From: Methanobacteriota archaeon
GTDB lineage: Archaea; Halobacteriota; Methanosarcinia; Methanosarcinales; Methanosarcinaceae
Reading direction: 5' to 3'
NCBI GenBank assembly: GCA_016841625.1
Contig: JAENYU010000023.1
Coordinates: 1-64,000 of the forward strand
DNA: 64,000 bases
Shown here: in pieces, positions 1,486 through 56,159 of the stretch
How positions within the stretch are numbered: position 1 is the stretch's first letter
How the letters are laid out: every line of letters begins with the position of its first letter
Notes under the pieces: model-generated
The model's database searches: none
Told to the model about the DNA's origin: nothing
Seen by the model: only the letters and a program-made list of their open reading frames with translations
Position numbers and translations under genes: made by a program

Positions 1486-2064
1486 TTATAATCCCTCTTT
1501 CTTACGTCCGAATATGAAGACAAGACCGAGGATGGCTGCCACCGGGAGAGCGACGGTCGGGAATTCGGGAATCAGGTTTAATCCTTCACCTTTAAGCTCA
1601 ACGACTATGTCCTGATAATCCCAGTCGGTTCCATCCTCAAATGCCAGGACGTAACCGCCACTTATAGTAAAGAGTTTTGCACGTTTCGTTCCACCATTCT
1701 GACTTGCCTCACTGTAATATGTTCCACTGGAGTTGATATACATACCAAACTCCTCACCCGGATTGAAACTTTGACTAGTACCTACTTCAATAGGGGGATT
1801 ACTAAACAGTTCATGCTTACCAAGTGAATCCGCTTCATACCAACCTGTAGGATTCGTGTAACTAGATTGTTTGTCTACAAGTAAAGCAGTAACAATATAT
1901 CCTCCATCTGCAAAAGTGTAGTTATCTGTAGATGTGACTTCCTGATAATTCCCTGCACCATATTTAGAATCAAGAATGAATCCTAAAGTATCTTCAGCTG
2001 CTGCCACACTTATGGATCCAAAAATGATTAATATACTTGCGAGTAACAACATTATTTTCTTCAT
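1486..2064 (-). CDS. PEF-CTERM surface protein with DUF4114-like region
   Basis: A 192-aa exported protein. Residues 1-23 form a signal peptide (MKKIMLLLASIL, then AAAE). The middle carries an FEDGTDWDYQD motif like the acidic, probably Ca-binding core of DUF4114 domains. The C-terminus is a textbook PEF-CTERM sorting signal: IPEFPTVALP, a hydrophobic stretch, then GRKKEGL. Such proteins are expected to be cleaved at PEF by an archaeosortase and attached to a membrane lipid; the gene at 10047-10883 is a good candidate enzyme. A paralogous PEF-CTERM gene lies at 4477-5025, with shared sequence upstream and downstream. The start is ATG 2064, preceded by GGGGTTGTT as in the paralogue. Confidence 0.85.
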   Translation of the reverse strand: MKKIMLLLASILIIFGSISVAAAEDTLGFILDSKYGAGNYQEVTSTDNYTFADGGYIVTALLVDKQSSYTNPTGWYEADSLGKHELFSNPPIEVGTSQSFNPGEEFGMYINSSGTYYSEASQNGGTKRAKLFTISGGYVLAFEDGTDWDYQDIVVELKGEGLNLIPEFPTVALPVAAILGLVFIFGRKKEGL

Positions 2065-4476: not shown

Positions 4477-5025
4477 TTATAATCTCTCCTTCTTACGTCC
4501 GAATATGAAGACCAGGCCAAGGATGGCTGCCACCGGCAGAGCGACGGTCGGGAATTCGGGGACTGAAGCTATAACGGAAGAAGCAGATACTATTTGAGAA
4601 ATTGAACTAGGTCCAACTATTACCGTTACTTTGTAGTTATCCCCTACAGGAGCGTTTCCCGTTAAATGAACTCTTACTACATTTAAGTCTGTAACTTCGT
4701 TATTATCATTTACCAGCGATGCAATGTCTACACTCGTTTTTAGGAGCACTGCAGTTATTTCGTTTGAATCAGCCGGAATGTCATATAAATTACTAGAAGA
4801 ATTAAAAGTGGTAACTGATACAACATATGGATATGTATGAAATTCAGTCGAATCTAAATTATAAATGAAAATCCCAAAGTCCGTAGTGCTTTCAGGTAGC
4901 AATTCAAGAGGATTATCACTCGGATTACCATTTTCATCTAACAAAATCGCATTTTGTGCCATTGCCGACCCGGCAAGGGATAGAATAAGCATCCCACTTA
5001 TCAACAATAATAGTATTTTCTTCAT
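4477..5025 (-). CDS. PEF-CTERM surface protein, paralogue 2
   Basis: About 182 aa. It starts MKKILLLLISGM, a signal peptide ending near AMAQ. The mature region is about 125 residues, probably beta-rich, with no motif I recognise. The C-terminus VPEFPTVALPVAAILG, then GRKKERL, is almost identical to that of the protein at 1486-2064 while the mature domains are unrelated, so the sorting module and the flanking DNA have been shared between different cargo. I chose ATG 5025 (GGGGTTGTT upstream) over the TTG three codons earlier because the paralogue starts at the equivalent MKKI. It is predicted to be an archaeosortase substrate anchored at the cell surface. Confidence 0.85.
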   Translation of the reverse strand: MKKILLLLISGMLILSLAGSAMAQNAILLDENGNPSDNPLELLPESTTDFGIFIYNLDSTEFHTYPYVVSVTTFNSSSNLYDIPADSNEITAVLLKTSVDIASLVNDNNEVTDLNVVRVHLTGNAPVGDNYKVTVIVGPSSISQIVSASSVIASVPEFPTVALPVAAILGLVFIFGRKKERL

Positions 5026-5043
5026 TCTTAACAACCCCTATAC

Positions 5044-5778: not shown

Positions 5779-8211
5779 TCAATCAGGATGTTCAACCACA
5801 AACGAGCTCGAACCTTCTATTTTTTCATTATCCAGAGTATATCCGGTTACTGAGACTTTGTGTGATCCTTCGTTTATATCGCTTTTTATTTTGGCTGTAT
5901 ATATATACTCCCCGTCTTCGGAATAAGTAAGGTAAATGATCTCGATATCCTCATTGGCGGAGATGGAAATATAAGGCTTTCTTTTTAAAGCTGTTGAGGG
6001 CATGACTCTAATCTCGATTTCACCTTTGTCAATACTCTCGGGGCTTATTTCTATCTCAAAGTCAGAAAGGGAGTTATCAACAAGCAATTCTTCAAACACA
6101 GATACGGAATTGTAAAAGACGTCCGTACATACTGCTTCCACATATAATTTATCGCCGTGTTCTACCACATATTTGCCTCTCCAGACCAGACCATCCGAAG
6201 AAGTCATCTCCACAAACTCAGGTTCCCAGTTTTCAAAGGTGACGAGACAGAACTGCTCCTTAAGGGGCACTGAGGATGTTACCGTAAACCAGGCACCTTC
6301 CTTACATGGGTTTGGAGTGATATCAAGAGTGATCTCAGGGAGACCAATATGAACTGTGGTCTTCGTGTCCGGTTCATCGTGTTCTTCTTCCCAGTTCCCG
6401 GCGTTATCAGCCGCCTTTGAACGGAAGTAATATGTATTGTTGTGTTCTCCCGAAAATACGGCTGATTTTGCAGTTGTTTTTGAAATCCATGGCTTCCAGT
6501 TGACCCCATCAACACTATACGATATGGAATAGTGGGCTACACCTGAACCTGCATCAGTTCCATTCCACTGGACTGTAAAGGTTTCATTGTTCGTGTAGGG
6601 CGGAAGTTCCAGTACTTTTGAACTAGGAGGAATGCTTTCAACAACATATCCTTCTTCCACGTAGGAGGAAAGTTCTTCAACGGATTTGAGAGAAACACTG
6701 TCCCAGAGCACTTCTACAGGGACCAGTTCGGAGTTTCCTCTTTGTCTTAAGCGCAGAGTAAGATTATTCGTACCTGCACTCAAGGAAACCGGAACCTCAA
6801 TGTGCTGCCAGCCTTCATCCCCTGAAATCCCGTCTTCCCAGAGGATTTCATTGCCCAAAAGAATCTGCTTGTACTGGGTATCACCCTGTGCCGGAGATCC
6901 TGAACTGCAGTTATCCATTACGAATGCAGAGATTACAGCCAGTGTGCTTTCCTGAAAGTCCAGACTTTGAGAGATCTCTCCGGACTGCTCCATAAATTCG
7001 GGATAAGTACCATTATATGAGTTTACTATCCGGTACGCCGAGGAGAAATCCACGCCTGAGCCATTTACATACGAACCATTGATGTATTCCGTGGTCGAAA
7101 CAAAATCCCATCCGATAAAGGATTCCATCTCCCCGTTTTCAATTATCGGAAGTTTGGCAACGTCCCCGTATGCTTCACCGAGGTGAGCGAAAGAGTTGTT
7201 GTTCTGCAGGTATAAGTGGACAGACCGGTAAGGGAAGTATCCTAGCTCTTCTTTAAAAAGTGCAAACTCAAGTTTGGACCTGTCATTTTTCAATTTTTGA
7301 CGGGTATAAGTAAGATTATCTTGCCAGGTACCCCCGTCTACTACGGGAACGCTTAATTCTTCAATAACCTGCCCATCCACTTTCATCTGGAGGATATAAT
7401 TTACATCCTGAAGCTCATAGTTGTCTATCCCAACGGTAACTGTGAGAGGAATGTTGATAAAGCTCTCAGAAGGGTAACCTTCGGCCTTTCCGTTCGGACC
7501 CAGGATGTAAAACGCTGTAAATGTTTCTTTTTCGCGGGTCATCTTGGCGTATACAAGCATCCCACTTGCAATGATTATTGAACCGATAAGAGCAATTACC
7601 AGAGCCTTTTCGATTTCAGGAGGGAGAGGCATTTGCCTGGCTTTATTATTGGTATTAGAATTATTATTAGTGGACTGATCTTTTAGACCCCTTGCTTTAA
7701 CTTTACTTTTTGACCTGTGAAAACGCCTGCTTTCAGCAGGAACATATCTTTCTTCCGAAGACTCATCATATTCCCCAATATCTTCAGACCGAATCTCTTC
7801 TATGAATTCTTTTATCGAAAAAGAAAACTGTTTATCTTCATCCCAAAGTTTCCTTGTAAAAATTGCAATTATACTGAAAAAAACCGTCATTCCAAGGATG
7901 GATATGACTATTGGAGCAGGACGATACCCCCATGGCAGCAAACTGATTAAAAAGCCACTAAAAACAGTGAGTACAAGGCTGAAGCCGACACTTAAAGTGA
8001 AACGTTCAATGCCGCTAATTTCGTCATTTCCGGGGAAAAGCGCGGCTATAAATGCATAACCTGGAACGAAAAAAAAGAGAGACAAAGCTATTGGGATCCT
8101 GAGGAAAGTTTCATTGAATGGAGGAATGAGGATGAAAAGGACTCCCAGACATGAGAAAAAAGTAACTGCAAGCAAATCTTCAACAAAAATACATTTTTTG
8201 AAGCTTGGCAT
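5779..8211 (-). CDS. DUF1616 membrane-anchored surface protein
   Basis: An 810-aa protein. The N-terminal DUF1616-type domain has four membrane segments (about residues 11-30, 38-59, 70-93, 100-120), then a charged, Asn-rich cytoplasmic linker, then a fifth segment (about 200-222). The remaining 580 residues should lie outside the cell. They contain several N-x-S/T sites, a jelly-roll-like region, and a fibronectin-type or sialidase-associated module near 540-600 (VQWNGTDAGSG, then YYFRSKAADNAGNW). DUF1616 proteins are common in Methanosarcinales but have no assigned function; the ectodomain suggests binding or structural roles. It is transcribed alone, and ATG 8211 is the only good start. 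Confidence 0.8.
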   Translation of the reverse strand: MPSFKKCIFVEDLLAVTFFSCLGVLFILIPPFNETFLRIPIALSLFFFVPGYAFIAALFPGNDEISGIERFTLSVGFSLVLTVFSGFLISLLPWGYRPAPIVISILGMTVFFSIIAIFTRKLWDEDKQFSFSIKEFIEEIRSEDIGEYDESSEERYVPAESRRFHRSKSKVKARGLKDQSTNNNSNTNNKARQMPLPPEIEKALVIALIGSIIIASGMLVYAKMTREKETFTAFYILGPNGKAEGYPSESFINIPLTVTVGIDNYELQDVNYILQMKVDGQVIEELSVPVVDGGTWQDNLTYTRQKLKNDRSKLEFALFKEELGYFPYRSVHLYLQNNNSFAHLGEAYGDVAKLPIIENGEMESFIGWDFVSTTEYINGSYVNGSGVDFSSAYRIVNSYNGTYPEFMEQSGEISQSLDFQESTLAVISAFVMDNCSSGSPAQGDTQYKQILLGNEILWEDGISGDEGWQHIEVPVSLSAGTNNLTLRLRQRGNSELVPVEVLWDSVSLKSVEELSSYVEEGYVVESIPPSSKVLELPPYTNNETFTVQWNGTDAGSGVAHYSISYSVDGVNWKPWISKTTAKSAVFSGEHNNTYYFRSKAADNAGNWEEEHDEPDTKTTVHIGLPEITLDITPNPCKEGAWFTVTSSVPLKEQFCLVTFENWEPEFVEMTSSDGLVWRGKYVVEHGDKLYVEAVCTDVFYNSVSVFEELLVDNSLSDFEIEISPESIDKGEIEIRVMPSTALKRKPYISISANEDIEIIYLTYSEDGEYIYTAKIKSDINEGSHKVSVTGYTLDNEKIEGSSSFVVEHPD

Positions 8212-8667
8212 TATGCTACGAAATAATTCATCAAGGGATATAACTTTTTCCTAATATTAATTATCAGATACAGACCAATATTTCGATCCAGAGTAATGAA
8301 CGAGATAAGACTCTTCTTTACCAAGAATTTTCGTTGAAGATCTAAGAGATAATATTAAAAGGATAGGATTTAGGAGAGAGGATAAAAAAGAAAGCCAATA
8401 ACCAGTTATAGAATCTTTTTTAGAAGCTTTGTTTCCAAAACCGCTTAATTTTTTGAGGATTACTGCTGACAGACATAATTACAGTTGAAATCGAAAGTTT
8501 CATAAAAGTGATCACTTTATCTATATAAGGGAATCAATTTTCAGAGGACGATAGTATAAACAGATATAAATATATTTATCAGGCATATTTCATCAGCTAA
8601 AGCCATTTCACAAAGTTATAAATTATCATAACTTCAATCGTGACTAAAAAACTATAAGGGGGTTATC
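8212..8667 (+). promoter_or_regulatory. Divergent intergenic region with TATA-like motif for the M48 gene
   Basis: A 456-bp gap between divergent genes with no ORF. AAACAGATATAAATAT at 8558-8573 contains a good archaeal TATA-like box about 95 bases before ATG 8668. The identical 16-mer occurs at 41932-41947 upstream of the first VanZ-like gene. Confidence 0.45.
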
Positions 8668-9855
8668 ATGAGCAACTGGATTAAAACATCTCTATTCTTT
8701 TTGTTCCCATCCATTCTTCTGGTCCTGCTCGCAGGACTTACAAAAAACGCAATTATCGTGGCAGCCGTAGCTTTCCTGATGCTTATCCTGAGCATTTATA
8801 TATATCTTTCAGCCGGCAGATTGATTCTCAAATTGTACAAAGCCCGAAAAGTCCGGAGAGATGAGAATTCTTTTTTGTACTCAATTCTGGAAGACCTTTC
8901 CACCAGGGCACAGATCAAGGCCCCCGAATTATACAGCTTCGAAGCAGAAACTCCCGGGATGTTTACGGTTGGAAACGGGAGCAAAGCCTTTATTGCCATT
9001 TCAACGTCGATGTTTGAAACCTTTGACGACCTGAACCTGGAAGTTTTACTGGCACATGAAATAGGACACATAAAAAATAGAGATGTAAGCCTGAATACAG
9101 TCACCGCACTTTTTGCAGGAGCGGTCATGACGATTCCGGAGCTTGCAACGTGGGGTTCACTTCTCTCAGGCTTCGGGCAACCCCAAGACCCGGCACCCAG
9201 GTTCTTCAGGTTTATAGCGACAGCCCTTGCAGCACCTCCCGCGGCAACCCTGGTGCAGCTTACAAACCCCCAAAGAAGGGAATTGGAAGCAGATGAAGTT
9301 GCAATCAAACTTACCAGGAATCCCCAGCTCCTTGCAAAAAACCTCGAGTTTCTTGAAAACTACATACCCTTCCAGCCGCTAACCAGCAAGTTTAACCCCG
9401 GACATTTCCACCTGTTCAGTACACACACCCAGAGGATCAGAGGAGACCATGCTATTTTCATTTCCATGTTTGACACACATCCCGATACAGGGGACAGGGT
9501 CATGCACATCCTCAACCATTCAAACTATAAAGAAAACGGCATTATAACTAACAGGTATTCCAGGGTTCCTGGATTTTTTGATTCGAAAAGCTGGAAACTT
9601 GCCATGGGAATGAGTTTTGTTGTTTATATGATGTTTTTGTTCGTGATTATAGTCGTGGTTACCTTTGCATTAAAGGACTTCAACTTCCTTATAAATGGGG
9701 GTATTGCCGGGGTATATATCGGGGCAGTTCTACTCTTTATGAGAATTACTGCAAAGGTTACTCGCAGAAGGCCTCGACAAAAGTGTCTTCTACCGGTTCA
9801 TAAAAGAATTATCTTGAATTCAAGGCAGGCTTTCAATTACTTTGTAAAAAGATAA
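8668..9855 (+). CDS. M48-family (HtpX-like) membrane metalloprotease
   Basis: A 395-aa protein with two N-terminal membrane segments (about 8-25 and 28-48) and two more near the C-terminus. The zinc site is HEIGH at residues 130-134 with the third ligand Glu205 in ELEAD, the standard M48 pattern. HtpX-type proteases clear misfolded membrane proteins with the active site facing the cytoplasm. The start is ATG 8668 after GGGGG (spacing about 7). The C-terminus is basic and slightly longer than usual. It stands alone, facing a convergent archaeosortase gene. Function is confident at family level; the substrate is unknown. Confidence 0.9.
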   Translation: MSNWIKTSLFFLFPSILLVLLAGLTKNAIIVAAVAFLMLILSIYIYLSAGRLILKLYKARKVRRDENSFLYSILEDLSTRAQIKAPELYSFEAETPGMFTVGNGSKAFIAISTSMFETFDDLNLEVLLAHEIGHIKNRDVSLNTVTALFAGAVMTIPELATWGSLLSGFGQPQDPAPRFFRFIATALAAPPAATLVQLTNPQRRELEADEVAIKLTRNPQLLAKNLEFLENYIPFQPLTSKFNPGHFHLFSTHTQRIRGDHAIFISMFDTHPDTGDRVMHILNHSNYKENGIITNRYSRVPGFFDSKSWKLAMGMSFVVYMMFLFVIIVVVTFALKDFNFLINGGIAGVYIGAVLLFMRITAKVTRRRPRQKCLLPVHKRIILNSRQAFNYFVKR

Positions 9856-10046
9856 TGAAAAAAATCAAAAATCATAATTCTCAGGATGACTGAAAAACAT
9901 TTGCCATCAAAAAGTAGAGTTAGAGAGCACAACCTGTTTCAATAAGGAACCAGGAATATCGAAAAAAAAAACAAAAAAGCAATCAAGATATATAGAGAGA
10001 AACTCAGGGGAACTCGAGAACCTCAGAAAAATAATCGAATTCAACA

Positions 10047-10883
10047 TTACTTTTTTAGCTCCATTAAATACATTATAAAAGCTGCAACTACTGCAAATAT
10101 AATCCATCCTAGATGCGTGTGCACAACCATCATTGTCTCCTGTCCGTACATGTAGGCAGTGAAATAAAGGACTACAACCCTGAACAGGTTTGAGATGTAG
10201 GCGACGAGCACACAAAACCCGAGCATCATTAGGGTCTTATTCATATTCAGGTTTTCAATCCTGCTGTATCCGAAAACAATCCCGATTAAAAGGAACATGG
10301 AATACAACCCTGAACAGGGCCCTCCGATAACCAGGGTCATTTCTTCAACTCCACTTATTCGAACAGTCTCCGTGGCAATTACTTCGAGAGGGATACCTGC
10401 AAGGTTTAAAACACCCACAGTAGGGAGAAGTATAAAGTAGTGGTCGAACTTGTGAAGGAAATCGATGTTAAAGAAAGCAAACATGGTGTAAAAAATAAGG
10501 TAAAAGACAACAAAAACGGATGAGATATACGCACCAAACCTGGATACCCTATTTATCTGCGGGTTCTTCAACTGGGTCCCGATCAAGGAAGCCCCAAAGA
10601 ATACTGTCATAACATCCAGAGTCCCAAGTTCCCCGCCATTTTTGAAATTGTAGACGAGGTCTGCAACTACTATGAAAGCCCCCACAAAGAAATAGGTTTT
10701 TGATTTTTTCAGGATATCTGAGTCGCCCAGATTTTTGAAGTCAATCCTTGTCAGCAGAAATACGGAAATAAGGAACAGAATGACTCCTACAATAGTTGAA
10801 CCTTCACTGATTTCAACAGCCATCCCGGTAAACAGTGCCAGCACCAGTAAAATAAGGATCAGATTTTTAGTTTCATCCCCCAT
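10047..10883 (-). CDS. Archaeosortase (exosortase-family transpeptidase), probably PEF-CTERM type
   Basis: A polytopic protein of about 278 aa with roughly seven to eight membrane segments. The exosortase/archaeosortase catalytic residues are visible: Cys in GGPCSGLYSM, Arg in SNLFRV, and His in VVHTHLGW, in the usual order in the C-terminal half. The enzyme is expected to cleave C-terminal tripartite sorting signals and transfer the protein to a lipid anchor. Two PEF-CTERM proteins are encoded within 9 kb, so the archaeosortase C (PEF-CTERM) subfamily is the likely assignment; an HMM would settle it. ATG 10883 is chosen, with a GTG three codons upstream as alternative. The upstream region holds a 42-bp tandem repeat with TATA-like boxes. 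The next gene, divergent at 11457, starts the glycan island. Confidence 0.85.
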   Translation of the reverse strand: MGDETKNLILILLVLALFTGMAVEISEGSTIVGVILFLISVFLLTRIDFKNLGDSDILKKSKTYFFVGAFIVVADLVYNFKNGGELGTLDVMTVFFGASLIGTQLKNPQINRVSRFGAYISSVFVVFYLIFYTMFAFFNIDFLHKFDHYFILLPTVGVLNLAGIPLEVIATETVRISGVEEMTLVIGGPCSGLYSMFLLIGIVFGYSRIENLNMNKTLMMLGFCVLVAYISNLFRVVVLYFTAYMYGQETMMVVHTHLGWIIFAVVAAFIMYLMELKK

Positions 10884-10896
10884 CAGAACCACTTAA

Positions 10897-10980
10897 TTCA
10901 TATATAATATAATGCGTTGCATGAATTATTTTAAACAATTCGTATATAATATAATGTGTTGCATGAACTATTTTAAACTT
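10897..10980 (-). repeat. 42-bp tandem duplication in the archaeosortase promoter region
   Basis: Two 42-bp copies (10897-10938 and 10939-10980) differ at only a few bases. Each holds a TATA-like TATATAATATAATG element and GTTGCATGAA. The array starts 14 bases upstream of the start codon, so it duplicates the promoter or leader and may give two start sites. Confidence 0.75.
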
Positions 10981-11045
10981 TTCCTCAAGATAGACACGGA
11001 TCATATTCTAAAGAACTAGCATCCCTATTGAAATGAAAAAAATGT

Positions 11046-11161
11046 GTAACTATTCGATCACGTGTAAGCATAATGTTGAAAAAAGAGGGTAATTTTATAT
11101 GCAATTTTTCCTCGGAACGAGGAAAAATTGCTTTCACTCAAGGGTATGGCTGAATAGTTAC
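11046..11161. repeat. Nested inverted-repeat element (MITE-like)
   Basis: The outer arms GTAACTATTC (11046-11055) and GAATAGTTAC (11152-11161) are perfect inverted repeats. They flank a perfect 14-bp stem with a 3-base loop (11101-11114 and 11118-11131). There is no coding potential. The structure could be a miniature transposable element or a structured RNA; it sits between the archaeosortase gene and an IS fragment. Confidence 0.6.
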
Positions 11162-11226
11162 GAAAAAAGTTCATTGAGTTAAAAGTGAGATCTTTCCATA
11201 AAAGATACAAAATTATTTATAACTCC

Positions 11227-11334
11227 TATGTTTCAAATGATTGGGATGCCTTTAAAAAAGCCCTTTTAAATGCGCATGGAGAATTTGAGTTGCCGCAGTA
11301 TAAAAAAGGGATTGCAGAAAAACGTCGCCAATAA
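11227..11334 (+). pseudogene. Fragment of IS1-like transposase
   Basis: The plus-strand translation YVSNDWDAFKKALLNAHGEF matches the YVSDDWDAFEKALLNVHGEF stretch of the IS1-like transposase at 2698-3829. Only about 36 codons remain before a stop. It is a relic on the opposite strand, just before the glycan island. Confidence 0.8.
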
Positions 11335-11456
11335 GAGTACCTAAAGAAGAATTATTTGGATTGAAGACATTTTCCAGCGGAGAGATCTTAATTTTTAGCA
11401 AGTTTTTTAAGATTTAAGATTCATTACGACATGAAAGTTAAAATGGGGGTTGCTAA

Positions 11457-12368
11457 ATGTATTTCCTTATGACAAATGATGTGGAGCATCACTCAATTCC
11501 ATTAAATCGGGAAGATCCAAATTTACCTGAGAAGATATACAATGTTGGACTTCCATTGCTTTTGGATGTGCTGTCTAAATATGACATTTCATCTACATTC
11601 TATTTTACTGGGATGTTCGCAGAGCAATCACCAGAATCGATGGAATTGGTAAAAGACCATGGTCATGAAATTGGTTGCCATGGGTATGATCACTCTCCTA
11701 ACCGTGCTTTCGACATTTTAAATCTCGAAGAACAAATTGAAGAGCTCAAAAAAGCCAAATCTGTGATCGAACCCATTGCAGGAAAGATAACCTCGTTCAG
11801 AGCACCTGCACTTAGGATCAATAACGATACTGTGCTCGCTTTAGAAGAAACTGGTTTTACTACTGATAGCTCCGTTGCATCCCAACGTTTTGATGGTCCT
11901 ATGACATTTGGTTCTAAAAAAAAGTTGAAATGGTTGACTGCTCCAAGAAAACCATACAACATCTCATATGATTCGCCTATGCGGAGAGGGAGTTCAGGAA
12001 TACTCGAAATACCGATATCTGCAGCAATATTTCCATTTATTGGAACAACCATGCGGATAAGCCCCACAGTTACAAAGGGTCTTCAGAAATATATGTTCTA
12101 TGAAGCAGAAAAGACTGAAAAACCAATCGTTTTTTTGTTCCATCCAAATGAATGTTTAGATATTAATGAGAAGGTAGCTATTACAAGGCGAGCTACAGGA
12201 ACATTCGAATACATTTTTGCTGATTTAATCAGACAAAGGTTAAAACTTAAAAATCTAGGTAATGCATCGCTAAGATTGCTGGATGAAATGCTTAGAAACG
12301 CGAAAAAATATGGATTTGAATTTGTAAGTGCAAAAGAATACAAAAGTCTATATTGGAATGGTGATTAG
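11457..12368 (+). CDS. Polysaccharide deacetylase (NodB-like), exosortase-locus type
   Basis: A 303-aa CE4-type deacetylase. The metal site is visible as NDVEHH near the N-terminus (Asp of the TFDD-type motif) and HGYDHSP (H-x3-H). The FRAPALRI and TDSS motifs resemble the deacetylases of bacterial PEP-CTERM/EPS loci. It should remove N-acetyl groups from sugars of a surface polymer. No signal peptide is seen, so the enzyme probably acts on lipid-linked precursors in the cytoplasm. ATG 11457 follows a GGGGGT ribosome site. It is the first gene of the island, and the next gene overlaps its end by 11 bases. Confidence 0.85.
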   Translation: MYFLMTNDVEHHSIPLNREDPNLPEKIYNVGLPLLLDVLSKYDISSTFYFTGMFAEQSPESMELVKDHGHEIGCHGYDHSPNRAFDILNLEEQIEELKKAKSVIEPIAGKITSFRAPALRINNDTVLALEETGFTTDSSVASQRFDGPMTFGSKKKLKWLTAPRKPYNISYDSPMRRGSSGILEIPISAAIFPFIGTTMRISPTVTKGLQKYMFYEAEKTEKPIVFLFHPNECLDINEKVAITRRATGTFEYIFADLIRQRLKLKNLGNASLRLLDEMLRNAKKYGFEFVSAKEYKSLYWNGD

Positions 12369-13404
12369 TTTGGAAGTTCGTAATATAAAAAAAAGCGATG
12401 AAAAAGCATGGGACCAGTACATATTAAATTCTAACACTTCAACTTTTTACCATCAAGTAGGCTGGAAAAATGTCATAGAGAGAACATATGGACATAGGTC
12501 TTATTATTTAATAGCTGAAGAAAATGATAACATAAGAGGAATTCTTCCATTGACTTTGGTAAAAAGTAGAATATTTGGAAATAAACTAGTCTCAGTTCCT
12601 TTTGCCCCTTATGGAGGAACTTGCGCGGACAATGAGATTATCAAAGGGGAACTTATAGAAGAATCAAAAAGGCTTGCCGTACAACTCGATACAGGATATT
12701 TAGAACTTAGAACTAATCTGAGTAAAGATACATTTTATGAAGGTTTGACAAATAAGGCTAATTACTTATCATCATATTTAGAATTAAATAGAGACCCAAA
12801 CGTCATTTTAATGGAGAAACTTAAGAGAAACAAAAGAAAAAATATATATAAGTCTCAACAGATGCAACTTTCCTATAAATGGACAAGTGAAACAGATGAT
12901 TTTTATGAATTATTTGTCAGTAATATGAAAAAACTTGGTAGTCCCGCACATAGTCAAGAATTTTTCAATAACATTATTTCTGAGTTCCCAGAATCTTCAA
13001 AGGTCTTATTGGTAACAAAAGATAATAAAGTAATATACTCTGCTTTTTACCTTTTTTTTAAAGATACGATGGTTAATTCATGGAGTTCTACTCTACAAGC
13101 TTATCGTCAATATTATCCTACCGATTTTGGCATATGGAATGCAATAGAATACGGTTGTAAAAATGGATATACACATTATGATTTTGGAAGAAGCCAAAAG
13201 GGGTCAACAAACTTTGAATTTAAGAGAAGATGGGGTTGTGAATCAAGAGAATTAAATTATCAGTACTACCTTAATAAGAAAAAAACTGCACCCAATATTA
13301 CATCTTCAGATCCAAAACGTAAAATGTTTGCAAAATATTGGAGTAAAACTCCATTTTTTGTTGTAAAAACATTAGGTCAATTAATTCGCAAGAAAATACC
13401 ATGA
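12358..13404 (+). CDS. FemAB-like / GNAT-fold transferase
   Basis: About 348 aa. The C-terminal region has the motif YDFGRSQKGSTNFEFKRRWG, very close to the FDFGRSK-GT--FKK-WGF signature of FemAB-like proteins associated with exosortase systems. Bacterial FemAB proteins transfer amino acids from aminoacyl-tRNA to peptidoglycan precursors. An archaeon lacks murein, so here an aminoacyl or acyl transfer to a surface glycan is inferred. ATG 12358 is preferred because the upstream alternative at 12328 would overlap the deacetylase by 41 bases. The short overlap suggests translational coupling to the deacetylase. Confidence 0.8.
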   Translation: MVISLEVRNIKKSDEKAWDQYILNSNTSTFYHQVGWKNVIERTYGHRSYYLIAEENDNIRGILPLTLVKSRIFGNKLVSVPFAPYGGTCADNEIIKGELIEESKRLAVQLDTGYLELRTNLSKDTFYEGLTNKANYLSSYLELNRDPNVILMEKLKRNKRKNIYKSQQMQLSYKWTSETDDFYELFVSNMKKLGSPAHSQEFFNNIISEFPESSKVLLVTKDNKVIYSAFYLFFKDTMVNSWSSTLQAYRQYYPTDFGIWNAIEYGCKNGYTHYDFGRSQKGSTNFEFKRRWGCESRELNYQYYLNKKKTAPNITSSDPKRKMFAKYWSKTPFFVVKTLGQLIRKKIP

Positions 13405-13414
13405 GGCAAAAAAC

Positions 13415-14104
13415 GTGGAATTAGATTTGCATATTCACTCAAGATACTCGTATGATTCATTCTCAGATCCAAAAAAAATTATAAAATATAGTATAAAAAA
13501 GGGTTTGAATGGTGTTGCAATCACTGATCATAATACCATAAAAGGTAGTATTGAAGCAAGTAAGCATATAGAAGAAGATTTTGTATTGATCCCTGGAATG
13601 GAAATAAGTACGGAAGTTGGTCATATTATTGGTTTGTTTTTAAACGAAGAGATCAGAAGTAGGTCAGGTACAGAAGTCATTGAAGAAATTAAAAATCAAG
13701 ATGGAATTTCAATACTTGCTCATCCATTTAAAAGAACTGATAAAATAGAAGACGAAATTATAAAAAAAATAGATGCTGTTGAAGTATTTAACTCAAGAGC
13801 AAATACATCCAGAAACTTAAATGCAAATTTAGAAGCTGAAAATGTTGCAAAAAAATATAATCTCCCTGTGACTGCAGGCAGCGATGCTCACTTTTATTTT
13901 GAAATAGGACGTGGTAGAGTCAAAATTGATTTAGCAGATGTAAGTGACCTAGAAGAAATAAAAAAAAGCATCATGAATAAAAATTTAGAGGTTAAAGGGT
14001 TTGAGTCATCTCCCCACATTGAATTGTGCAGTCAAATTATTAAGTATATTAAAAGAAAAAAAGTCCCAAAATGTGGTTCAATAGAAAGATACCTAAATAA
14101 GTGA
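13415..14104 (+). CDS. PHP-domain phosphoesterase
   Basis: 229 aa with the PHP metal-site motifs in order: DLHIHSRYS at residues 4-12, TDHN near 38, LAHPF near 107 and GSDAHF near 150. PHP enzymes are trinuclear-metal phosphoesterases, and stand-alone members hydrolyse small phosphate esters. The start is GTG 13415, 10 bases after the FemAB-like gene. Its position between FemAB-like and ATP-grasp genes suggests a role in making or recycling a glycan precursor; the substrate is unknown. Confidence 0.8.
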   Translation: MELDLHIHSRYSYDSFSDPKKIIKYSIKKGLNGVAITDHNTIKGSIEASKHIEEDFVLIPGMEISTEVGHIIGLFLNEEIRSRSGTEVIEEIKNQDGISILAHPFKRTDKIEDEIIKKIDAVEVFNSRANTSRNLNANLEAENVAKKYNLPVTAGSDAHFYFEIGRGRVKIDLADVSDLEEIKKSIMNKNLEVKGFESSPHIELCSQIIKYIKRKKVPKCGSIERYLNK

Positions 14105-14113
14105 GGGGAGTTT

Positions 14114-15259
14114 ATGAGTGTATTAATAACCGACGCAAACAAAAGAACCTCGTTATATGCTTTAAGATCGTTGGGATCAAAAGGAATTGAAGTAGTAGCT
14201 ACTGAAATAGAAGGTGTACGTAGACCAATTGGTTTCTTTTCAAAATACTGTAAACATTCTATAATAACCCCCAATCAAAATAGTAAAATGTACATCCCTA
14301 AAATGATAGATCTTGCAAAAAATCACGAAGTTTTGATTCCAATAAGTACAGATTCGATGGTACCTATTTCCAAAAATATAAATGAATTCGAAAAAGTAAC
14401 TGAAGTACCTATTCCTGGTTATAAGCAACTCCTTATTGCACAAGATAAAAATTTAACTCTTGAAGTTGCAGAGAATTTAGGCATACCATGTCCGAAGACC
14501 TTTATTCCACGAAATTTATCAGAACTCAAAGAAATAGCATTGAAATCTGAATATCCAATTGTAGTTAAGCACAGAAACGGTTCTGGTGCACAGGGAGTAG
14601 TGTATGCTAAATCACCAGAAGACCTTATCAAAAAATACACCTCGATGCATCAAATACAAGAAAAACCACTAATTCAAGAGTATGTAAAAGGAAGAGGTTA
14701 TGGAGCCTTTGCACTATTTAATAAAGATTCAAAACCTGTTGCTACTTTCGTACATAAGAGACTTCGAGAATATCCTATTACTGGAGGACAAAGTACTTTC
14801 TGCGAAAGTGTAAAAGAACCCGCAGTTTTAAAAAATGGATTAAAAATATTGAAAGAACTTAATTGGTATGGTTTAGCAATGGTTGAATTTAAAGTTGATG
14901 AGTCTGGTGAGCCAAAAATTATGGAAATAAATCCTAGATTTTGGGGTTCTATGCCACTTGCAATAGCTTCAGGGGTAGATTTCCCGTATTTGTTATATAA
15001 GCTTGCAATTGATGGAGATATTAGCAAAGTTAACTCTTATCAAGTTGGTGTTAAAACTCGGTTTCTTTTTTCAGACACATTAGCTTGTTATGAATTATTC
15101 TCACAAAGTTCAAACAAAATTTCTGCATTACAAAATTTCTTTCACCCATTTTTTGATAGAAATGTAGTTGAGGGATTATTTGTGCGGGATGATCCAAAAC
15201 CTACACTTCAATTCCTTGTTGATAGATACCTCCGATATTTGGGAGGCAATAAAAAGTGA
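14114..15259 (+). CDS. ATP-grasp ligase (carbamoyl-phosphate synthase-like fold)
   Basis: 381 aa. It has an N-terminal pre-ATP-grasp Rossmann-like domain (VLITDANKR), the ATP-binding region VVKHRNGSGAQGV near residue 150, LIQEYVKG, and the metal-binding MEINPRFWGS near residue 275. Such ligases join a carboxylate to an amine or amino acid through an acyl-phosphate. ATG 14114 follows GAGGGGAG. The final TGA overlaps the GTG of the next gene. With FemAB-like and aminotransferase neighbours, an amino-acid-decorated glycan is a reasonable inference. Confidence 0.85.
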   Translation: MSVLITDANKRTSLYALRSLGSKGIEVVATEIEGVRRPIGFFSKYCKHSIITPNQNSKMYIPKMIDLAKNHEVLIPISTDSMVPISKNINEFEKVTEVPIPGYKQLLIAQDKNLTLEVAENLGIPCPKTFIPRNLSELKEIALKSEYPIVVKHRNGSGAQGVVYAKSPEDLIKKYTSMHQIQEKPLIQEYVKGRGYGAFALFNKDSKPVATFVHKRLREYPITGGQSTFCESVKEPAVLKNGLKILKELNWYGLAMVEFKVDESGEPKIMEINPRFWGSMPLAIASGVDFPYLLYKLAIDGDISKVNSYQVGVKTRFLFSDTLACYELFSQSSNKISALQNFFHPFFDRNVVEGLFVRDDPKPTLQFLVDRYLRYLGGNKK

Positions 15260-16422
15260 TACCTCCAGTTATAGTTCCAGTGACATATGAAGAAATAATA
15301 TTAGCACTTAGTGAAAGCATTAAAGATGGTAACAGCGCAGTTAAAGATCTAGAACAGAAGATTACGGAATACATTAGTTCTAAACACTCTATTGCAACAT
15401 CTTCAGGACGAACAGCGCTTTACACACTATTAAAAGCATATGGAATTAAAAGTGGCGATGAAGTTGCGATGCCAGCATATATGTGTAGTTCCGTTTCAGA
15501 TCTGCTTTTTAACATGAAAATAAAGGTTAATTTCATAGATATTGATAAAGATACTTATAATTTAGATACATCCGATTTAAATGAAAAAATAAATGCAAAT
15601 ACAAAAGCTGTAATTGCAGTACACATGTTTGGAAACCCATGCGAGATGAGCATAATAAATGAGATTGCAAAAGAAAATGGGTCTATTGTTATCGAAGATG
15701 CGGCACAAGCAATGGGAGCTGAATATAAAAAAGAAAAAGTTGGAACAATAGGAGATTCAGGTTTTTTCAGTTTCAATCGAGGAAAGCCACTGACTTCGTT
15801 AGATGGAGGCGCGATAGTTACTAATGATAATAACGTCGCTCAAAAGTGTCGAGATATAAGCAACAATTTTTCAAAACAGAGTAAAGGGAATCAATCAAAG
15901 ACATTTTTTAAGCTAGTTGGTTATACTCTGATACAAAATAGAAATGTGTACAGATTTGTGCATAATTTAGCACGAAATGAGAAAACTAGATGTGACATAA
16001 ATATCAATAATATTGGGACAAAATATACTAATTTTCAAGCAGAGTTAGCTAGCACACAGCTATCAAAATTAGATATGTTCAATAATATAAGGAAAAATAA
16101 TGCAAATCTCATTTATTATAACCTTCAAAATAACAAGCATATTAAATTATTAAACATAAGTTCACACATGGATCCAATATTTTTAAGGTTTCCAATCAGA
16201 GTTGACACTTCAATTCGATATGACTTAATGAAACAATTACAAAATAATGGTATCGAAACCTCTATAGTTTACCCAGTTGCTCTATCTAAACGGTACAACA
16301 ATTTTTCTGCATGTGAGAACGCAGAAGAAGTTGTGAAAGAAACTATTGCATTACCTGTGCATCCACAAGTGACTAAAAAGGATGTGGCAAATATGACAAG
16401 AGTTCTATATGATATGCTATAA
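15256..16422 (+). CDS. DegT/DnrJ/EryC1-family sugar aminotransferase
   Basis: 388-aa PLP enzyme. The Schiff-base lysine is Lys177 in FSFNRGKPLTS; VIEDAAQAMGA near 145-154 provides the pyridine-nitrogen Asp, and SGRTALYTLL near residue 50 the phosphate-binding region. Family members aminate keto-sugar nucleotides to make amino sugars for surface glycans. GTG 15256 overlaps the previous stop by 4 bases (GTGA), so it is translationally coupled to the ATP-grasp gene. Confidence 0.88.
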   Translation: MIPPVIVPVTYEEIILALSESIKDGNSAVKDLEQKITEYISSKHSIATSSGRTALYTLLKAYGIKSGDEVAMPAYMCSSVSDLLFNMKIKVNFIDIDKDTYNLDTSDLNEKINANTKAVIAVHMFGNPCEMSIINEIAKENGSIVIEDAAQAMGAEYKKEKVGTIGDSGFFSFNRGKPLTSLDGGAIVTNDNNVAQKCRDISNNFSKQSKGNQSKTFFKLVGYTLIQNRNVYRFVHNLARNEKTRCDININNIGTKYTNFQAELASTQLSKLDMFNNIRKNNANLIYYNLQNNKHIKLLNISSHMDPIFLRFPIRVDTSIRYDLMKQLQNNGIETSIVYPVALSKRYNNFSACENAEEVVKETIALPVHPQVTKKDVANMTRVLYDML

Positions 16423-16451
16423 ATGACATATTTGATCAATTGGGGGCAAAC

Positions 16452-17480
16452 ATGAAAATATTATTTGGAATGGGACACCCAGCGCACATTCATTTTTTTA
16501 AAAATATTATACATAATTTGGAGAATAATGGTCACGAAGTTAAGATTGTAGTACGAGACCGTGAAATTGCAATAGATTTGCTTCAAGCATATGGATTTGA
16601 GTATAGCTTATTTGGAAAATATCGTAAAAATTTTGTAGCAAAAGTAGCTGAGATTCCATTTAATGACTACATATTTTATAAGATTGCAAAAGATTTTAAA
16701 CCTGATGTATTAACAGGAATATTAAATTACACATCATCTCACGTAGGTAAATTGATAGGGCGACCCTCAATAATATTTACTGACACTGAAAATGCGAAAT
16801 TGGCCAATAAACTAGTTTGCCCTGTTGCAGATGTAATTTGTACTCCGAGTTGCTACAAAGGTGACTTTGGATCGAAGCACATAATGTATAATGGATATCA
16901 TGAACTTTCATATTTGCATCCAAACAATTACAAACCAGACCCAACAATATTGGACACTTTAGGGTTAGATAAGAATGAAAAATACATAATTTTGCGACTG
17001 GTTTCTTGGAACGCTGCTCATGATATTGGGGATAAAGGTTTGAAGGATATTAAAGAGACAGTGAAATCTTTGGAAGAATATGGAAAAATTCTCATTACTT
17101 CAGAATTAAAACTTAAACCTGAATTTGAAAAATACAAAATAAATGCATCTCCTGATAAAATTCATGATTTACTAAATTATGCTACGTTATACATTGGTGA
17201 AAGTGCAACAATGGCCTCTGAAAGTGCCGTGCTTGGTACTCCATCAATATTCTGTTCTACATCTAGAAGAGGATACACTGACGAGCTAGAAGAAAAATAT
17301 AATTTAGTGTACAATTTTTCTGACGAGCTTTACGGAGAGAAATTTGCTATAGAAAAAGCACTTGAATTATTAGAAAATAATAATCTCAAAAAAGTATGGG
17401 AGAAAAAAAGGGAAAGAATGTTGAAAGACAAAATTGATGTCGCTAAGTTTGCAACTGATTTGATTGAAAGTTACTTATGA
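16452..17480 (+). CDS. DUF354 glycosyltransferase-like protein
   Basis: About 342 aa. It starts MKILFGMGHPAHIHFFKN, the typical DUF354 opening, and has a GT-B-like layout: two Rossmann-type halves with GESATMASESAVLGTPSI in the C-terminal half, a nucleotide-sugar-binding style loop as in UDP-GlcNAc epimerases and MurG-like enzymes. ATG 16452 behind GGGGGC is better than the TTG four codons upstream. It is likely a nucleotide-sugar transferase or epimerase for the glycan. Confidence 0.8.
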   Translation: MKILFGMGHPAHIHFFKNIIHNLENNGHEVKIVVRDREIAIDLLQAYGFEYSLFGKYRKNFVAKVAEIPFNDYIFYKIAKDFKPDVLTGILNYTSSHVGKLIGRPSIIFTDTENAKLANKLVCPVADVICTPSCYKGDFGSKHIMYNGYHELSYLHPNNYKPDPTILDTLGLDKNEKYIILRLVSWNAAHDIGDKGLKDIKETVKSLEEYGKILITSELKLKPEFEKYKINASPDKIHDLLNYATLYIGESATMASESAVLGTPSIFCSTSRRGYTDELEEKYNLVYNFSDELYGEKFAIEKALELLENNNLKKVWEKKRERMLKDKIDVAKFATDLIESYL

Positions 17481-17638
17481 CTTAAGGAAACCATCATTAA
17501 TTAAGAGAAAATATAGTATAAAAATTACTTTTAGAGTTTGAATTGAAAATCTACATTCTTTTGTGACATTGGAATTGTATAAACATGAGTGAATAAGTAA
17601 TAGAGAGTGTATAAGTACATACTAACGTGGTGTATAAA

Positions 17639-18304
17639 ATGATGATATCTGCACACCAACCAAATTACCTTCCTTATTTAGGCTTCTTTGATAAAATGCG
17701 CAAGTCTGATATCTTTATAATTCATGACGATGTTGAATTCAATCGTAGAGATTTCCAGCATCGTAATAAAATTAGAATATATGATGGATGGAAATGGCTT
17801 ACGGTACCAGTGTTCAAGAAGGAACATATAAAAATAAATGAGGTATTAATTAATAATAAAAATGAAAAAAACGAAGCAAAATGGTCAAATAAACATATGC
17901 TTGAAATCCATTCAAATTATAACAAAACTCCATATTACGAATCCTATGAACACGAAATAAAAAAAATTTATAGTAAAGAATATACTTATTTATGTGATTT
18001 GAATATGGAACTGATAAAATTTCTAATTAAAGCTTTTGATATTAACATTGAACTTGTATATGCAAGTAATTTTGATTTTAAAACAACATCAACTCAAAAA
18101 CTTGTAGATATGGTAGAAGAATTGGGCGGCACGACTTATTTATCAGGAGTTGGAGGTTACAATTATATCGACCTTTCACTCTTCAAAAATATCGAAGTAA
18201 AATTTCAAAAATACGAACATCCAGTATATCCTCAAAGATATGATAGTTTTGAACCAAATATGTCTGCAATAGATGTGCTTTTTAATGCAGGTTACCTTCC
18301 TTAA
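17639..18304 (+). CDS. WbqC-family protein
   Basis: About 221 aa, opening MISAHQPNYLPYLGFFDKM with DDVEFNRRDFQHRNKIR following, which is the WbqC signature. WbqC-like proteins occur in O-antigen and other polysaccharide loci, where an acyl or aminoacyl transferase role has been proposed. The start could be either of two adjacent ATGs (17639 or 17642). It is preceded by a gap of about 150 bp, so a separate promoter is possible. Confidence 0.8.
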   Translation: MMISAHQPNYLPYLGFFDKMRKSDIFIIHDDVEFNRRDFQHRNKIRIYDGWKWLTVPVFKKEHIKINEVLINNKNEKNEAKWSNKHMLEIHSNYNKTPYYESYEHEIKKIYSKEYTYLCDLNMELIKFLIKAFDINIELVYASNFDFKTTSTQKLVDMVEELGGTTYLSGVGGYNYIDLSLFKNIEVKFQKYEHPVYPQRYDSFEPNMSAIDVLFNAGYLP

Positions 18305-18322: not shown

Positions 18323-18934
18323 ATGAACAGGAAAATATTAGCCATAGGTGCTCATCCAGATGATATAGAACTTGGTTGTGGAGGAACTCTTAAAAAACAT
18401 ATATTGGAAAAAGATGAGGTTTTTATTTTAATAGCATCGCTTGGTGAAAAAAGCGGCAATAGTGTTGTTAGGAAAAAAGAAGCTTTATCCTCGACTGAAC
18501 TAATGGGTGCCAATAAAGTTTTCTTTTTAAACTTACCAGATACAATGATTAAGCATGATGGAGTGACTGTTGGTTTACTTGACAAATATGTTAGTGAAAT
18601 TGAACCTCATATAATATATGTTCATTCTATGAAGGATTATCATCAAGATCATGTAGCGATATCTGTATCTGCACTTTCGGCATCCAGGCACATGAAAAAT
18701 AGCGTATTTTACTATGAATCTCCCTCAACGACTATAGAATTCAAACCAACTGCATACAATGATATTACAAATGTTTTTAACTGTAAATTAGCCTGTATTA
18801 AACAATATACCTCACAGAGAAAAAAAGACTACATGGAAAAAGAATCAATCATCGGACTGGCAAAAAGCAGAGGTAGCGTAATTGGTGTCAAATACGCGGA
18901 AGCATTTGAAGTTGCTCGATTATTTAACTGGTAA
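18323..18934 (+). CDS. LmbE/PIG-L-family N-deacetylase
   Basis: 203 aa with the PIG-L zinc motif AIGAHPDDIELGCGGT at residues 6-21 and the third ligand in HQDH near residue 112. These enzymes de-N-acetylate GlcNAc-type sugars or their conjugates. It is the second deacetylase of the island, of a different fold from the NodB-like one. It starts 18 bases after the WbqC gene. Confidence 0.88.
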   Translation: MNRKILAIGAHPDDIELGCGGTLKKHILEKDEVFILIASLGEKSGNSVVRKKEALSSTELMGANKVFFLNLPDTMIKHDGVTVGLLDKYVSEIEPHIIYVHSMKDYHQDHVAISVSALSASRHMKNSVFYYESPSTTIEFKPTAYNDITNVFNCKLACIKQYTSQRKKDYMEKESIIGLAKSRGSVIGVKYAEAFEVARLFNW

Positions 18935-18970: not shown

Positions 18971-19855
18971 ATGGATGAAAAAAATGTGAATAATTACTTA
19001 CTACTGAGTGTAGTAAAAAATGAAGAAACTAATCTACACAAAACTATAAAATCAGTTGTCCAACAAAGCATCCGACCAACTTTATGGGCCATATTCGATG
19101 ATTGTAGTACGGATAATACTCCAAAAATACTTGCAGAAGCAGAAAAAAAATATAATTGGATATTGTACATTAGACTAGATAACTCTCATCAGCGAGATCT
19201 AGGTCTCCATTTGGCTAAACTAATAAAAGAAGGATTCGAGCATCTTATTAAATACTGTAAAATAAAGCAAATAAGGTACAAATATCTTGCAAATCTAGAT
19301 GGTGACCTGATTTTAGAGAACGAATTTTTTGAAAAATTAATTAACGAATTAGAATTAGACCCTTCCCTTGGAATTGTTAGTGGTAGTACACAGTACCTAG
19401 TCAATAACAAATTAATTACAGCTGACGTTGATATAAATGAGCCATCTGGTGGGCATATGTTAGTCAAAAAAGAATGTTTTGAACACATTGATGGGATTAC
19501 AGTGGCTTATTCTTGGGACAGCGTACTAAAAGTAAAAGCAAGGCTTAGAGGTTGGAATACTAAACGTGTTAACGAAGCTAAAGTTTTTGAATATAGAGAT
19601 GTAAATAGTGCTGAAGGATATTGGGCAGGGTATATGTTCCGAGGAAAAGGTGCATACTATCTAAACTTAAATTTGATGCATGTTATCGGGAAAGGGGTCA
19701 CGTATTCATTTAAAAGCCCCTACTATATAGGAATTGCTTATTTATACGGTTATTTTTTAGATTACTTTACCCATAAAGAGAAAATAAATGATGAAGAACT
19801 TAGTGAATACTATCAAAATAAATACAAATCCATCATTAATAGTTGGGATAAGTAA
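18971..19855 (+). CDS. GT2-family glycosyltransferase
   Basis: 294 aa with an N-terminal GT-A domain: VVKNEETNLHKTI, FDDCSTDNT, and the DxD-type NLDGDLIL. The acceptor region holds GGHMLVKKECF. The C-terminal 60 residues may associate with the membrane. It transfers a sugar from a nucleotide donor in the cytoplasm. ATG 18971 has an AGGG ribosome site, and the stop overlaps the next ATG (TAATG). Confidence 0.85.
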   Translation: MDEKNVNNYLLLSVVKNEETNLHKTIKSVVQQSIRPTLWAIFDDCSTDNTPKILAEAEKKYNWILYIRLDNSHQRDLGLHLAKLIKEGFEHLIKYCKIKQIRYKYLANLDGDLILENEFFEKLINELELDPSLGIVSGSTQYLVNNKLITADVDINEPSGGHMLVKKECFEHIDGITVAYSWDSVLKVKARLRGWNTKRVNEAKVFEYRDVNSAEGYWAGYMFRGKGAYYLNLNLMHVIGKGVTYSFKSPYYIGIAYLYGYFLDYFTHKEKINDEELSEYYQNKYKSIINSWDK

Positions 19856-21426
19856 TGAATTTATCAAAAAGAGCAACGTATCTAATATTTCTATTAATAT
19901 TATTGCTCAATATTATCTTACGTTATCCGACCGTTCCTAACGAAATTGGATGGGACTCTTTTGTGGTCCACTGCGCTGCAAACTCGCTATCGGAATTTGG
20001 TTTTGCTAAATGGTGGCTTCACCCAACATCACTTATTGGTTCATATCCTTATTCAATTGCAAGTTCAGTTCCTTTTTTAATATCAGGCATATCATTACTT
20101 ACAAGTTTAAATATGAATATATCTATTTTATTGTACAGTACAATTATTGGACTACTATGCATTTTTGTTGTATATATTTTAGCAAGTTCAATTTATGGGA
20201 ATAATGATAACTTATTTAATTTTATAGTTGCTTTTGGATTCTCAACTTCACCAGCTATCCTAACATTTTCATCATGGACAGGACCAACCCGTACTCTGTT
20301 TGCTGTTGTATTGTTACCATTTATTTTATATTTATTATTAAAAACTCACCAATCATATAAATTTTACATTTTATTGTTTTGTATGTTAGCATTAGGGATA
20401 ACAACACATCACTATATATATTTCACATTTGTGATAATAATTGGTGAGCTATTATTAAAAGTCGGGGGTAAGTTCAGAAAATATATATGTATAAATGAAT
20501 TTCATAAAAATGTATGTTACATTGTTTTTTTTGCAATAGCAATCAGTTTACCTTTTTTCACAGGACTGTTCATGGAAAGCGAAAGAGGATATAGTGGTTC
20601 AAGATATGGGTTCGTATTAATGCTAGTCTCAAGTTATTTTAGATATTCCGGGCTTTTATTCCTTTTTGCATTAAGCGGATTCTTATATCTAACAGTAAAA
20701 TATGAAAAAAATTATCAAGAGTGGTTTTTTTTAATAAGTTTCGCATTACTATCACCGTTTTTTTATATAGAAACATATATGAAATGGTTTTTACAAACTT
20801 ACATATTCATTTTTACCGGTATTGGTTTGTCAAATGTGTTCAAAATAGATACATTTAAAAATAAAAAAGTATTACCAATTATATTAATACTTTTAAGTGT
20901 ATCTATATCTGGCTATTTCCAATTTATACATTTTTCAGATGACCAAGATCGTTATTTAGATGAAAAAAGTTATGCTAGTGGAGTGTGGATTTCAAATAGG
21001 GTAGATGGAAATATCACAGGAACTTCTCAATATACAGCACTAAGAATTTATTCTATATCAGAAGTACCAACATTAACACTTTCAGATATGTTAAATTATA
21101 TTAATGGATTTCTAGAATATGATGAGTCAAAAATTATTAAAAAATACTCCATGCTTTCTTTAGATTATTACTGGCATAATCCTTATGATATAGATAATGT
21201 AGATGGCGAATGGTATGTAAATCAATTACCTAATTGGAATATTGACGACATGCATTTTAAAAATTTCAGATCCACATTTAACATATCACATTTTATTTGT
21301 GATGAAACAGATAATTCAGATGAGTTCTCATCTTCGCTGGATTCTAGTGACAGTACTAATAAAATATATTCCAATGGTAGAATATCCATTTGGAATTATA
21401 GTCAAGAACCAAATCTATTTAATTAA
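19855..21426 (+). CDS. Polytopic membrane protein, probable GT-C-type glycosyltransferase or polymerase
   Basis: 523 aa with about ten membrane segments and a soluble C-terminal domain of about 130 residues. The first extracytoplasmic loop contains NEIGWDSFVVH, an acidic motif placed as in lipid-linked-sugar-dependent GT-C enzymes. It could be a glycosyltransferase using a polyprenyl-phosphate sugar, or a Wzy-like polymerase; sequence alone does not decide. It is coupled to the GT2 gene by a one-base overlap. It is very AT-rich and is the last gene before the mobile-element block. Confidence 0.7.
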   Translation: MNLSKRATYLIFLLILLLNIILRYPTVPNEIGWDSFVVHCAANSLSEFGFAKWWLHPTSLIGSYPYSIASSVPFLISGISLLTSLNMNISILLYSTIIGLLCIFVVYILASSIYGNNDNLFNFIVAFGFSTSPAILTFSSWTGPTRTLFAVVLLPFILYLLLKTHQSYKFYILLFCMLALGITTHHYIYFTFVIIIGELLLKVGGKFRKYICINEFHKNVCYIVFFAIAISLPFFTGLFMESERGYSGSRYGFVLMLVSSYFRYSGLLFLFALSGFLYLTVKYEKNYQEWFFLISFALLSPFFYIETYMKWFLQTYIFIFTGIGLSNVFKIDTFKNKKVLPIILILLSVSISGYFQFIHFSDDQDRYLDEKSYASGVWISNRVDGNITGTSQYTALRIYSISEVPTLTLSDMLNYINGFLEYDESKIIKKYSMLSLDYYWHNPYDIDNVDGEWYVNQLPNWNIDDMHFKNFRSTFNISHFICDETDNSDEFSSSLDSSDSTNKIYSNGRISIWNYSQEPNLFN

Positions 21427-22068: not shown

Positions 22069-25729
<3,661 letters not shown>

Positions 25730-33157: not shown

Positions 33158-33178
33158 AGGAATGACTGAAAAATAACT

Positions 33179-56086: not shown

Positions 56087-56159
56087 CAAGTTAGTATATG
56101 CTTTACCAATTTATATACATTTCAGTAAAAGCACACTCATTATGAAAGTTTACGCATTC

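Follow-up and report, generated by a model that had tools for sequence, protein, structure and literature searches.

What does archaeosortase C (ArtC) attach its substrates to, and could the genes beside it make that acceptor? The acceptors of exosortases and archaeosortases are partly known: a lipid has been proposed for ArtA, and none was found for the bacterial XrtA or for ArtC in the literature covered. The question is raised by a 64,000-nucleotide stretch of contig JAENYU010000023.1 from a methanogenic archaeon of the Methanosarcinaceae (the window hereafter; its own genome is designated G000, the genomes surveyed are numbered with G and the fetched loci with L), in which artC (10047..10892, minus strand) is divergent from a gene for a CE4/NodB-type deacetylase (11457..12368, plus strand) and one for a FemAB-type aminoacyltransferase (12358..13404, plus strand). 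We read the locus as an archaeosortase C island: the sortase is linked with a surface-glycan cassette, whose first two genes, for the deacetylase and FemAB, supply the acceptor of ArtC. To this reading we assign a probability of roughly 0.45. A functional tie between the pair and ArtC is very likely; that the pair makes the ArtC acceptor is a tentative proposal, drawn by analogy.

The sortase is a full member of the archaeosortase C family (TIGR03762, 413 bits against a cut-off of 100), and the catalytic Cys-Arg-His residues to which an earlier note on this sequence had pointed are present in exosortase-type motifs (C193 in GPCSG, R238 in NLFR and H258/H260 in HTHLGW). The two PEF-CTERM proteins that the note had placed within 9 kb are likewise borne out as probable ArtC substrates (1486..2064 and 4477..5034, both minus strand; TIGR03024, 40.6 and 41.4 bits, cut-off 23), and the genome holds nine sites over this cut-off, on five contigs. 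A genome search returned a single artC. The exosortase/archaeosortase signature matched only ArtA and ArtC in this genome; this search found no XrtA exosortase, and ArtC/PEF-CTERM stands in place of XrtA/PEP-CTERM. The single artA is followed, in an operon, by genes for archaetidylserine decarboxylase and synthase.

The deacetylase that adjoins artC matches the Pfam family Polysacc_deac_1 (PF01522) with 66 bits against a cut-off of 23.1 and presents all the CE4 motifs (D8-V-E10, H75..H79, R115-A-P and H229-P), which it has in common with three bacterial XrtA deacetylases. Judged by score and motifs, it is a true CE4 enzyme, as its description as NodB-like had anticipated. Its best named match among the NCBIfam models is the XrtA deacetylase model TIGR03006, where it scores 74.7 bits against a cut-off of 276.2 and is therefore not a member. 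The FemAB-like protein carries YDFGRSQKGSTNFEFKRRWG and exceeds the cut-off of TIGR03019 (292.3 against 260.35 bits), and in a tree of FemAB sequences it groups with bacterial XrtA FemABs (support 99/99), in agreement with the resemblance to PEP-CTERM/exosortase FemAB proteins that had been suggested for it. The model memberships expected in the earlier note hence hold for ArtC and the FemAB protein, but not for the deacetylase. The listed start of the femAB gene is a GTG at 12328; the ATG at 12358 is likelier, and gives an 11-base overlap with the deacetylase gene.

The AlphaFold2 model of the FemAB protein (predicted local distance difference test score 92) finds its best matches in the folds of FemX, Sbb17 and FemA, with 6snr returned at an E-value of 1e-15 and 9wqx at a target template-modelling (TM) score of 0.81. 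The structure of Sbb17 was solved with streptothrisamine, the amino-sugar compound on which this enzyme acts. The solved relatives found by sequence are exclusively tRNA-dependent aminoacyltransferases, and the window protein is predicted to fold like them. The deacetylase and the FemAB protein encoded beside artC probably trim a sugar and add an amino acid to it.

For a survey of its gene neighbourhood, artC was looked for in the family (over cut-off in 39 of 112 genomes) and in the class (over cut-off in 62 of 238). The regions retrieved comprise 40 around artC from the family and a further 20 with artC or its usual partner from the rest of the order. This usual partner is not the window-type deacetylase, but an unnamed CE4-like family, here termed HDVDR. 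A typical locus runs PEF-CTERM protein, DUF1616 protein, M48 protease and artC, followed divergently by a HDVDR-motif protein of about 265 residues, FemAB and glycan genes. Forty-five artC loci extend for 4 kb or more on the divergent side. Of these, 39 have a deacetylase or deacetylase-like gene within 9 kb of artC, 32 have FemAB, 32 have the two together, and 33 have DUF354 nearby; DUF1616 is found within 9 kb in 42 of 52 loci, and the M48 gene is near artC in the same proportion (42/52). For complete genomes of the family, FemAB lies within 5 kb of artC in seven out of nine, with an expected chance of 0.3-1% for a gene of this family at that distance, and HDVDR lies within 10 kb in all nine complete genomes. 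The control, artA in 20 genomes, gave no case of FemAB or HDVDR at a distance of 10 kb or less.

Judging by contig names, the artC loci belong to Methanosarcina, Methanolobus, Methanococcoides, Methanoperedens, ANME-2, Argoarchaeum, Methanoxibalbensis and a contig titled Thermoplasmatales JdFR-43, and co-location with the deacetylase or FemAB recurs in at least five archaeal families. Recurrent co-location with archaeosortases, on which the earlier note had staked its proposal, is therefore observed. The broader link proposed there, between the archaeosortase and a modified surface glycan, stands as a recurrent and specific association, and departs from the proposal in that the deacetylase falls outside the XrtA model and the usual partner is HDVDR. 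In one locus (L065, 3262-4092, G179), a window-type deacetylase beside artC is split into two open reading frames, probably by a frameshift.

The phylogenetic profile of HDVDR follows that of artC. Taking as presence a score of at least 300 bits against a HDVDR alignment profile (a line set after the scores were seen, the next lower score being 288), HDVDR was detected in 35/39 artC-positive and 1/73 other genomes of the family (Fisher p 2e-23, uncorrected for shared ancestry), and in 48/62 artC-positive and 2/176 other genomes of the class (Fisher p 5e-35, likewise uncorrected). Both artC-negative genomes with HDVDR have, in that same region, artC homologues that score below the cut-off. In the HDVDR tree, most artC-linked copies share one clade; those of G060, G177 and G178 form a second, and one case (G156) falls elsewhere. 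The best Pfam score of the family is 15.7, against the PF01522 cut-off of 23.1, and CE4 folds head the list of a fold search as a weak match (E-value of about 1e-3, TM scores of 0.34-0.43). HDVDR is annotated as a hypothetical protein wherever annotation was seen, and the same holds for relatives on haloarchaeal plasmids and in Spirosoma. An in-frame TGA present in many HDVDR matches was dismissed, because it reflects alignments that run beyond the terminal stop codon.

The window's own genome is an exception to this pattern, as it lacks an artC-type HDVDR; a truncated HDVDR remnant lies beside a DUF354 gene elsewhere in the genome (L057, 9895-10326; G000:C1:90958-91344). Comparison by blastn with a genome of the same genus (G006) revealed 76-88% DNA identity through DUF1616, M48 and artC, ending at about position 10900, at the artC start codon; the divergent intergenic region (10893..11456) leads on to a different cassette. 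The nearest relative of the window's deacetylase-FemAB pair is found, in the same gene order, at the artC locus of G178, a genome from another family of the order (64.5% DNA identity over 1850 bases; FemAB proteins 53% identical). Since homology stops at artC and the nearest pair sits at this locus, the cassette has been exchanged at artC, and the replacement again holds a deacetylase and a FemAB gene. The FemABs common at artC loci and those of G082, G038, G044 and G167 form two further deep lineages of the FemAB tree. Three separate lineages in one slot argue for a functional requirement.

These observations can be accommodated in a mechanism in which the glycan cassette would build a membrane-bound glycan and the CE4 deacetylase would free the amino group of one of its sugars. 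The FemAB protein, going by its fold and family, would move an amino acid from a charged tRNA onto the freed amine. The cysteine of ArtC would then cut the PEF-CTERM signal and pass the new C-terminus to the amine of that amino acid, leaving the protein attached to the glycan. The step from neighbouring gene to acceptor follows the same logic as the published ArtA model, in which the genes adjacent to artA make an amine acceptor, archaetidylethanolamine (PMC7157517). If this reading is right, the acceptor is a defined molecule, a single genome carries two sortases, each served by an acceptor module of a different kind, and the unnamed family that tracks artC acquires a function.

Several points weigh against this reading. 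Biochemistry was not found for ArtC, for the deacetylase or for this FemAB protein, and ArtC might use archaetidylethanolamine, like ArtA. Several artC loci of Methanoperedens and other families have no FemAB nearby (L072-L078). The second histidine of the CE4 metal motif is replaced in HDVDR, and its likeness to the CE4 fold is distant; being only CE4-like and altered at this residue, HDVDR may not deacetylate. In addition, the module occurs without a sortase, both in bacteria and in the window's own genome. At G000:C24 (L042), a fusion of HDVDR with a NodB-type deacetylase (566 residues; 9249-10949, minus strand), which recurs in artC-negative genomes, adjoins a FemAB over the TIGR03019 cut-off (8228-9259, minus strand), together with DegT, another HDVDR (5924-6715, minus strand), DUF354, an epimerase and a flippase; no second sortase was found within the 20 kb fetched. 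Sets of HDVDR, deacetylase and DUF354 are also found in Bacteroidota without a sortase, and the sortase-free second-locus HDVDR copies form a separate, fully supported clade. The existence of such modules indicates that the pair also has a role apart from sortases.

The sortase-free copies lend weight to an alternative in which the pair decorates a surface glycan or exopolysaccharide apart from any sortase acceptor, ArtC uses a phospholipid such as archaetidylethanolamine, and a shared site of action at the cell surface explains the adjacency. The genes for the ArtA acceptor are in the same genome and could be shared by ArtC, and the bacterial XrtA-associated genes lie in exopolysaccharide loci without a proven acceptor role. 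This account is plausible, with chances clearly short of even, but it leaves unexplained the tight profile of HDVDR and artC, the fact that unrelated deacetylases and FemABs have refilled the slot, and the consistent absence of the pair from artA loci.

It could also be argued that these genes co-occur through linkage alone and have no functional tie, the island being a block that is either inherited vertically or mobile. The block is patchy within genera and is surrounded by transposase-like reading frames and group II introns. Nonetheless, G032 carries an intact DUF1616-M48-HDVDR-FemAB-glycan module on a contig other than that of artC, and in G139, G154, G157, G159 and G165 HDVDR is either on another contig than artC or 47 kb away from it. 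Because the partner genes persist when unlinked from artC, pure linkage is disfavoured as the cause of the profile; moreover, the cassette was swapped exactly at artC with its functional classes kept, and we regard this explanation as improbable. Lastly, the proposal that the FemAB protein is an acyl-CoA-type GNAT enzyme re-acylating the deacetylated sugar to yield an acyl-modified exopolysaccharide draws on its match to Pfam Acetyltransf_6 (40 bits) and is quite unlikely, given that its solved sequence relatives and all its best folds are aminoacyl-tRNA-dependent enzymes.

Divergent transcription, across a gap of about 565 bases, makes artC and the deacetylase-FemAB operon neighbours in separate operons. 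Beyond FemAB, the glycan operon continues on the plus strand with a PHP-domain protein (13415..14104; PF02811, PF13263), an ATP-grasp ligase (14114..15259; PF02655), a DegT-family sugar aminotransferase (15256..16422; PF01041, 263 bits; best NCBIfam match PseC, below cut-off), a glycosyltransferase-like DUF354 protein (16440..17480; PF04007, 84 bits), a WbqC-like protein (17627..18304; PF08889, 221 bits), a PIG-L/BshB-like de-N-acetylase (18323..18934; PF02585, 90 bits), a family 2 glycosyltransferase (18971..19855; PF00535, 51 bits) and, ending at 21426, a polytopic membrane protein without a Pfam match that recurs at artC loci (19855..21426). On the other side of artC, ahead of the PEF-CTERM genes, lie two of its recurrent neighbours, an M48/HtpX-like membrane protease (8668..9855, plus strand; at most 148 bits with NCBIfam HtpX models, below cut-off) and a DUF1616 membrane protein (5779..8211, minus strand; PF07760, 189 bits). 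Two further genes are tentatively assigned to the system: a polysaccharide flippase set apart by group II introns (26617..28095, plus strand; PF01943, 117 bits) and an MraY/WecA-type sugar-1-phosphate transferase (40762..41805, minus strand; PF00953, 88 bits), the likes of which adjoin artC in L027, L066 and L078, though these were not counted.

Downstream of the glycan operon, the region is broken up by several group II intron reverse transcriptases/maturases (22069-25729 and 32413-33240), and transposase-like open reading frames or remnants around the island (2698-3829, 28101-28412, 29946-31400, 33805-34392, 49912-51378 and 54974-56089) are consistent with its mobility. The window also encodes two cohesin-domain proteins (35757-38831, with dockerin, beta-helix and Ig domains, and 39428-40696), cellulosome-like modules in a methanogen, and a tandem of small VanZ-like membrane proteins (42115-42618 and 42661-43188), similar to reading frames next to DUF1616 in artC regions from other families (L064, L066, L067 and L078).

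Set against known systems, the locus is a full member of the PEF-CTERM/archaeosortase C system (TIGR03762, TIGR03024). The cassette of deacetylase or HDVDR, FemAB and glycan genes was not found described in the literature covered, which excludes the defining 2012 archaeosortase paper, where part of it may be noted, and the literature search returned no paper with both "exosortase" and "FemAB". The earlier note had seen here an archaeal counterpart of the bacterial exosortase/exopolysaccharide locus, and gene order and overlap do match those of XrtA/PEP-CTERM loci. In D. vulgaris, Vibrio alfacsensis and Sphingomonas plasmids, the gene for an XrtA-system deacetylase overlaps the FemAB gene that comes directly after it, with the exosortase about 1 to 13 kb downstream; as in the window, DegT and glycosyltransferase genes are near and an exosortase-family sortase is part of the cluster. 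The best bacterial match to the window FemAB is 31% identical over its full length. The window differs from these loci in its archaeal host, in the use of ArtC and PEF-CTERM and in a deacetylase far under the XrtA cut-off, and outer-membrane export genes were not seen in it.

In Staphylococcus aureus, enzymes of the FemX/FemA-FemB type make the amine used by sortase. The window FemAB has the same fold, whereas the substrate there is murein and sortase A is unrelated. The useful parallel lies in a deacetylase and an aminoacyltransferase that together produce the acceptor of a sortase, rather than in a misplaced peptidoglycan enzyme, and murein is beside the point. The lipid transfer that the earlier note had ascribed to the sortase is, for ArtC, only a possibility. 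The ArtA-PssD-PssA operon, which exists in this genome, resembles the locus in that the sortase gene adjoins genes for the proposed synthesis of its acceptor, and differs in that this acceptor is a phospholipid and in the absence of HDVDR and FemAB from the artA surroundings checked.

The Wbp/Vim pathway of Porphyromonas and Tannerella shares with the window a CE4 deacetylase adjoining a TIGR03019-matching transferase, and sortase-dependent anchoring, although its sortase (PorU) and export route are unrelated. Cargo proteins are joined there to a 2-N-seryl or 2-N-glycyl sugar, with VimA, which matches TIGR03019, setting the amino acid and VimE as the presumed deacetylase; Veith et al. remarked that genes of this kind also occur next to bacterial exosortases, leaving their use there open (PMC7468200). 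Wbp-like sugar genes occur in the window's genome (C7:40.2-44.8 kb), but a specific association with artC was rejected, with the acetyltransferase present in 108/112 and the oxidoreductase in 88/112 genomes of the family; being near-universal, they say little on ArtC. It is conceivable, if somewhat speculative, that ArtC joins proteins to an aminoacylated amino sugar produced by the deacetylase and FemAB next to it. One acceptor chemistry, in which a sugar is deacetylated and receives an amino acid whose amine is then used by the sortase, would in that case serve unrelated sortases of both domains, namely ArtC, XrtA and PorU. The comparison suggests that in archaea, too, a sugar bearing an amino acid may be what surface proteins are hung on.

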